Assembly: GCA_023260835.1 (NCBI GenBank)
Contig: JALQTR010000084.1
Span: 1-37,914 of the forward strand
Length of the DNA stretch: 37,914 nt
Reading direction: 5' to 3'
Source: Paracoccaceae bacterium
GTDB lineage: Bacteria > Pseudomonadota > Alphaproteobacteria > Rhodobacterales > Rhodobacteraceae
Shown here: piece by piece, positions 12,003-12,601 of the stretch
Layout: every line of letters starts with the position of its first letter
Position numbering within the stretch: position 1 is the stretch's first letter
Program-made: the position numbers and the translations under genes
Notes under the pieces: generated by a model
What the model was told of the DNA's origin: nothing
What the model saw: only the letters and a program-made list of their open reading frames with translations
The model's database searches: none

Positions 12003-12341
12003 ATGCAGAAGAATTTTCCGGTGGATGCATTGGAAACCTGCGCGCTGCGTCTGTGGGAAGGCGAGGAACGTCTGTTCCAGCTAAGCCAGAAATCCGCAAT
12101 GGACGAAACCGCCATGGCGGAATTGCGCCGCATTATTCGACTGTTGCAATCCCTTATACCCGACCCAACCCGGTCGTTGGATTTGGCGCAGCGTTTGTTT
12201 TCACTGTTACTGCATCAGGTGATTGCGATGCTGTCACGCACGGGTCGCACAGATGCGCATGATTTTGCTGCTGAACGCAGTATTTTGTGGAACCTGCGCA
12301 ACAGTCTCAGCAGTTTTCAGCCGATGCGGGCTTGTGGATGA
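12003..12341 (+). CDS. FliS-like small helical protein (possible second chaperone)
   Basis: The 112-aa product is all-helical. Its segment at about residues 45-75 (LQSLIPDPTRSLDLAQRLFSLLLHQVIAML) can be laid over the FliS signature ([29 protein letters not shown]) with a similar hydrophobic pattern, but the GGEIA residues are absent. I therefore call it FliS-like rather than FliS. AAAGG 8 bases upstream of ATG 12003 decides the start; two further in-frame ATGs at 11958 and 11961 lack an SD. Its TGA overlaps the next ATG as ATGA, so the two products are probably made together. It may also be a lineage-specific flagellar protein unrelated to FliS. Confidence 0.6.
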   Translation: MQKNFPVDALETCALRLWEGEERLFQLSQKSAMDETAMAELRRIIRLLQSLIPDPTRSLDLAQRLFSLLLHQVIAMLSRTGRTDAHDFAAERSILWNLRNSLSSFQPMRACG

Positions 12342-12601
12342 GCCAGATCAAAACATTGCAGGCGATTGGGGATGATTTGCGCCGTGCGGCGGCGGCTGGC
12401 GATGCCGCCGCGGTTGCCGATGCCATCAAAAAACGCCACGCTTTGATCGATCAGATGACGGCTCCATCGCCCGCGATCATGGATGTAATGCGCGCGGAAC
12501 TGGCCAAAGATGCGCAGGCATTGATGCAGGCCCAGTCACAACAGGCGACGCAAGCCCGCGACATGGCGCGCGCCCGCAGCGGGTATTTGCAGCAAAAGTA
12601 A
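12338..12601 (+). CDS. FliT/FlgN-like small helical protein
   Basis: This 87-aa product starts at the ATG overlapping the previous stop (ATGA). It reads as two or three amphipathic helices: LQAIGDDLRRAAAAGDAAAVADAIKKRHALIDQM is close to the FliT/FlgN chaperone pattern of a helix, an AGD turn and a xxRxxLIxxM helix. A Gln/Ala-rich C-terminal helix follows (QALMQAQSQQATQARDMA). Such chaperones carry filament-cap or hook-filament junction proteins to the export apparatus. Similarity is in pattern and size, not in diagnostic residues. The coupled FliS-like gene and nearby fliS support a flagellar role. Confidence 0.6.
   Translation: MSQIKTLQAIGDDLRRAAAAGDAAAVADAIKKRHALIDQMTAPSPAIMDVMRAELAKDAQALMQAQSQQATQARDMARARSGYLQQK

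Follow-up and report, generated by a model that had tools for sequence, protein, structure and literature searches.

The window, the whole stretch of 37,914 nucleotides analyzed here, is contig C191 of an 85%-complete genome of 2.1 Mb (G000). In its left part, the minus strand encodes a sigma-54 activator, fliE, fliF, fliG, a FliH-like protein (22.8 bits against a cut-off of 24.1), a fliI-type ATPase, a 139-aa frame without a name in the position of fliJ, and fliK. The plus strand carries a 148-aa protein, fliS and d162 and, beyond a small gene on the opposite strand, the frames ORF1 and ORF2 followed by a small CxxC membrane protein. The ORF1-ORF2 pair, again overlapping, recurs in one other genome (locus L009, G030:C27). 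The relevant features of the window are:

8750-9970, minus strand: sigma-54 activator gene in the left part of the window
10608..10997 (likely start 10623), plus strand: true fliS (PF02561, 64.4 bits)
11056..11544, plus strand: d162, a conserved 162-aa protein with relatives in other genomes, used as marker of the locus
11547..11774 (frame open to 12002), minus strand: small gene between d162 and ORF1, also present in related loci
11787..11801, plus strand: perfect match to the sigma-54 (-24/-12) promoter, TGGCAC-N5-TTGC; the 19 bases around it (11785-11803) are identical in L009
11958..12341, plus strand: ORF1, 127 aa, probable diverged FliS-like protein with a homologue in L009; start from the DNA alignment with L009
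12338..12601, plus strand: ORF2, 87 aa, FliT-like protein by profile match and by model and PDB comparison
12616..12888, plus strand: small membrane protein with a CxxC start, 3' of ORF2; similar proteins recognized by eye

Within this 85%-complete genome, the fliS gene alone matched FliS; it lies, as the preliminary description had placed it, about 1 kb upstream of the pair. The fliD gene is found on another contig (C65:4926-5213). Neither Pfam nor NCBIfam gave a match for d162, which looks like a protein of flagellar loci that has no name.

Several smaller observations concern the neighboring genes. Wherever the opposite-strand gene and the FliT slot are both present in a related locus, the former stands between d162 and the latter, and its C-terminus SNMHRDAPRFGAAVNMIA is kept, by eye, in most of these loci. 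The CxxC membrane protein has no Pfam match; look-alikes, also judged by eye, follow FliT-like genes in L009, L024, L025 and L052. A 72-aa frame at 12898-13127 on the minus strand resembles frames in L009 and L022 and is preceded by a sigma-54 site with one mismatch (13113-13127).

The gene pair and its relation to FliT and FliS

The two frames are joined by an ATGA overlap as originally read, with ORF1 stopping at 12341 and ORF2 running from 12338 to 12601. The earlier start of ORF1 at 12003 had to be revised: the DNA alignment with L009 places it at ATG 11958, giving 127 instead of 112 amino acids, and this start rests on the block ATAGCATGA common to both loci. The G+C contents of the three codon positions are.60/.45/.57 for ORF1 and.67/.47/.69 for ORF2, compared to.62/.42/.57 for the neighboring fliS. 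Identity between window and L009 is 30% for ORF1 and 34% for ORF2. Due to the fliS-like codon bias and the conservation in a second genome, both frames are genes and not chance frames, and ORF1-ORF2 is a real gene pair. The preliminary description had named co-occurrence with flagellar genes as a test of a flagellar role, and flagellar genes accompany the pair in both genomes with ORF1.

ORF2 had been described as resembling FliT or FlgN. Using hhalign, the ORF2 pair of window and L009 aligned end to end with 11 other FliT-like proteins (prob 94, E 1.6e-7), a result equaled by none of 200 column shuffles, and ORF2 still reached an E-value of 6e-6 when it was left out of the FliT-like profile. 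The L009 homologue matched PF05400 with E 7.2e-5 and 24.0 bits, which is under the cut-off of 29.5 bits; ORF2 of the window has no Pfam match and does not reach the curated PF05400 cut-off. The AlphaFold2 model of ORF2 consists of three helices (pLDDT 87.9). Its first-ranked Foldseek match in the PDB was FliT of Bordetella (3h3m_B) at a non-significant E-value of 0.92, and in a second structure comparison the FliT structure 3a7m_B (VIA Z 6.2, rmsd 4.6 over 86) was tied with unrelated bundles. FlgN (PF05130) matched neither ORF2 nor any other protein of the 85%-complete genome. The FliT half of the original proposal is thus well supported by the profile and by the L009 match, while the FlgN half found no profile match. 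We classify ORF2 with good confidence as a FliT-like protein, and we use this term instead of FliT because the window protein and its L009 homologue both stay below the Pfam cut-off.

The link between ORF1 and FliS is more indirect. Neither Pfam nor NCBIfam returned a FliS match for ORF1, which does not reach the curated PF02561 cut-off. The core of FliS reads LQxSLDFxxGGEIAxNLF..YEY, and the absence of GGEIA from ORF1, noticed from the beginning, was confirmed; the L009 homologue retains SIDLRAGG. ORF1 has ten of 35 FliS-conserved residues, and we rejected the idea that this number exceeds chance, as 94 of 300 shuffles equaled or beat it; for the 11 residues of the L009 homologue, 61 of 300 did so. 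Against a local FliS profile, window ORF1 alone gave an E-value of 1.8, which is not separable from shuffled sequences. The L009 homologue, in contrast, scored E 0.00085, ranked first after 13 FliS frames and beat all 1000 shuffles; once it joined the profile, window ORF1 came to E 0.046. As a pair, the two ORF1 proteins aligned to FliS colinearly and in full length over 118 columns, with three of 200 shuffles performing as well, and showed no comparable signal against the FliT-like or d162 profiles. With the 12003 start, hhalign of the pair against 11 FliS gave prob 1.9 and E 0.026. A FliS alignment of ORF1 with prob 99 was discounted as circular, since the underlying alignment A7 includes both second FliS proteins described below. 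Searches of solved-structure sequences with the ORF1 pair and the ORF2 pair returned nothing useful.

These results bear on a rival explanation, in which ORF1 has no relation to FliS and is a small helical-bundle protein that stands before a FliT-like gene by chance. The lack of a direct FliS signal in the window protein would fit, as would the structure model of ORF1, which is helical and poor (pLDDT 59.2) and matches best to four-helix bundles of other kinds (S23-type, Avd). The 50 structural matches listed for this model did not include FliS, which says little at a pLDDT of 59. The profile score of the L009 homologue, the full-length colinear alignment and the true second FliS that fills the same slot in two genomes (see below) all speak against a chance neighbor, and we regard it as unlikely. 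Based on the same three indirect lines of evidence, descent of ORF1 from FliS is by our own estimate the likeliest reading, and one in which we have considerable confidence. The original designation as FliS-like therefore appears probable through the L009 intermediate and the position of the gene, although the window protein taken alone behaves like its shuffles.

Related loci and the slot before the FliT-like gene

Direct protein searches in 147 genomes returned matches besides the window in one genome for ORF1 and in three for ORF2 (including G034). G030 was the sole true relative among the inspected matches. An ORF1 match in G022 was rejected, lying inside a 292-aa frame that we take to be MazG, as was an ORF2 match in G103 inside a frame that is presumably an ATP synthase subunit. 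Searches of plasmids found no relative of the ORF1-ORF2 DNA and none of the L009 ORF1 protein.

As ORF1 and ORF2 are too diverged for good direct searches, we used d162 as locus marker. It was detected in 12 of the 394 family genomes (window counted), where it mostly adjoins fliS. A sample of 149 genomes of the order contained it twice, in both cases at known loci, and a larger one of 390 three times, with one new genome (G609). The resulting 13 loci comprise the window, L009, L022-L031 and L087; L032 lies on the same contig as L009, in a metagenome assembly labeled Gemmobacter sp., and L033 comes from one labeled Sulfitobacter.

A FliT-like gene was found in ten of the 13 d162 loci and not in L022, L023 and L087. 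The profile was built from 13 proteins including those ten, so low E-values in these loci are no test. In seven loci (window, L009, L024-L028) the FliT-like gene lies beyond the opposite-strand gene, and in L029-L031 it follows directly 3' of fliS. Among 16 further loci from the FliS search, six had a FliT-like match with E-values of up to 0.0033.

What stands in the slot before the FliT-like gene differs between the loci. The window and L009 have ORF1 there, L027 (G337) and L028 (G147) a second FliS above the Pfam cut-off, and L024-L026 nothing. FliS above this cut-off occurs in 27 of 394 family genomes, and G147 and G337 are the only two with two copies. ORF2 or its counterpart overlaps the preceding frame in the window, L009 and L027 and is separated from it by a short gap in L028. 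The fliD gene adjoins the unit in L009, L027 and L028. A FliS tree of 28 rows, with 13 of 25 inner branches open, did not place the second FliS.

Across these proteins the FliS-conserved positions decrease from 25-35 of 35 in true FliS to 20 and 21 in the second FliS, 11 in L009 and 10 in the window. Such a stepwise loss would also be expected if ORF1 were a decaying fliS duplicate without a function of its own, retained for translational coupling to ORF2, and the FliT-like genes of L024-L026, which occupy the place without ORF1, would suit this idea. However, stops would be expected in a relic, whereas the frame remains open and keeps its coding bias in two widely differing genomes, which moreover have 30% of the ORF1 residues in common. 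We therefore consider decay to be quite unlikely.

A putative sigma-54 promoter and possible clients of the pair

The perfect TGGCAC-N5-TTGC sequence is located 171 bases before the ORF1 start at 11958. It occurs once in the window, compared to 0.22 expected, and 21 of 100 shuffles contained at least one. At this site, window and L009 have a string of 19 bases in common, their longest such strings in fliS and d162 being 13 and 10 bases, respectively; with shuffled upstream DNA the maximum was 12. Sites with 9-10 of 10 matching bases were found 144-174 bases upstream of the unit in the window (counted from 11961 in this set), L009, L025, L027 and L028. This set includes every one of the four loci whose slot is filled by ORF1 or a second FliS; five of the ten loci with a FliT-like gene have no such site before the unit (L024, L026, L029, L030, L031). 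One-mismatch sites are no commoner in the window than by chance (8 versus 7.5 expected), and only the perfect conserved site was counted as evidence in the window. The opposite-strand frame covers the site unless it starts at ATG 11774. Judged from this conservation, ORF1-ORF2 probably have their own sigma-54 promoter.

The preliminary description had suggested a second, specialized chaperone pair, for example for another flagellin. ORF1 indeed looks like a second FliS. ORF2, however, is the sole FliT-like gene found in the locus, so that there is no full second pair, and ORF2 more probably represents the FliT that belongs to this system, next to an altered copy of FliS. There is also no indication of a second flagellin as client: the 85%-complete genome contains one flagellin fragment (C32) and one frame (C102) that we read as FlgL from its position.

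A related proposal would make the pair a dedicated chaperone set for a second flagellin, or for FlgK and FlgL with ORF2 acting as FlgN. Pfam FlgN has no match in any of the four genomes whose slot is filled by ORF1 or a second FliS (G000, G030, G147, G337), which leaves the chaperone of FlgK and FlgL unaccounted for in all of them. This gap may mean nothing, since three of nine genomes without ORF1 lack a FlgN match too, and three more have only weak ones in frames of 660-689 aa. The FliT match of the L009 ORF2 in Pfam, under the cut-off as it is, and the short list of clients in the assembly also disagree with a dedicated set, and in G337 it is the ordinary FliS, not the FliS in the slot, that sits among the Flagellin_N matches. 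We consider this proposal improbable. As a side observation, the small genome of G337 has 14 Flagellin_N matches, many of them in a tandem row around the ordinary FliS at L089 (C70:38000-52154).

Known systems and possible roles of the pair

In canonical fliDST operons, fliS is directly followed by fliT, and the same order is present in L029-L031, L051, L052 and L056. The window differs from this arrangement in that the gene before the fliT-like gene appears to be a diverged copy, with the true fliS in another unit. FliT and FliS are export chaperones of the cap protein and flagellin, respectively (PMC8036289). The nearest precedent for the pair is provided by fliS' and fleP of Pseudomonas aeruginosa, whose sigma-54 flagellar system has a second FliS-like gene next to fliS and, with it, a FliT-like gene; the function of fliS' (FliS2) is given there as unknown (PMC8036289, PMC12221181). 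FliS2 is described as a FliS homologue and adjoins fliS. ORF1, in contrast, can no longer be recognized directly as FliS; two other genes and a distance of 1 kb separate it from fliS, and its frame overlaps that of the FliT-like gene. Clostridioides difficile (fliS1/fliS2; PMC4026244) and a marine magnetotactic bacterium (PMC7175107) are also reported to carry two fliS genes next to fliD. Unlike in the window, both copies are annotated as FliS in these organisms, and the accessible text mentions no FliT-like gene.

A possible model for the role of ORF1 is HP1076 of Helicobacter pylori, a helix-rich bundle that binds FliS, shows co-chaperone activity in vitro and depends on RpoN for expression (PMC7248283). 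The two are likened by description, and they differ in that the nearest folds of HP1076 are among flagellins according to the same source. In its gene order, the window is similar to the Fla1 operon fleT-fliEFGHIJ of Rhodobacter sphaeroides (PMC7277832). A survey of Rhodobacterales takes a C. sphaeroides 2.4.1 cluster as reference for its fla3 type, which it counts 23 times in 306 genomes (PMC12363192); the older names in its discussion could not be fully reconciled, and we therefore assign no type label. Our literature search found no paper joining FliS and FliT to R. sphaeroides fleT or to the Roseobacter flagellar gene cluster.

Taken together, we favor on balance the explanation that ORF1 and ORF2 form one transcription unit, fliS2-fliT, which has its own promoter and belongs to a flagellar cluster similar to Fla1 in Rhodobacter (Cereibacter) sphaeroides. 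Judging from its family, ORF2 would be a FliT-type export chaperone that holds the C-terminus of FliD, the filament cap, and passes it to the export gate. ORF1 would have descended from a second FliS and lost most of the FliS-conserved residues. Because of this loss, and with the true fliS kept 1 kb away, it is most likely no usual flagellin carrier; probably made together with the FliT-like protein, it would most likely serve FliT or FliS as a regulator or co-chaperone. The unit would be read from the sigma-54 promoter, perhaps via the activator encoded at 8750-9970.

A more far-reaching version, which we put forward tentatively and consider less likely than not, is that ORF1 is FliS-derived, has given up flagellin and is now made along with FliT as its partner, either in a hetero-chaperone (FliS-FliT) or to switch export between cap and filament, with a sigma-54 control separate from that of fliS. 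If so, true FliS, the second FliS of G147 and G337, the L009 homologue and window ORF1 would be a record of a change in function.

Extra FliS copies are already known from Pseudomonas and Clostridioides, where their role is unknown. Here, the extra FliS appears to have diverged past recognition; even so, its frame is kept open in coupling with a FliT-like gene and seems to have its own promoter, and the purpose of a second FliS therefore becomes directly testable. For flagellar clusters of this type, the analysis also offers likely names for genes that had been without annotation.
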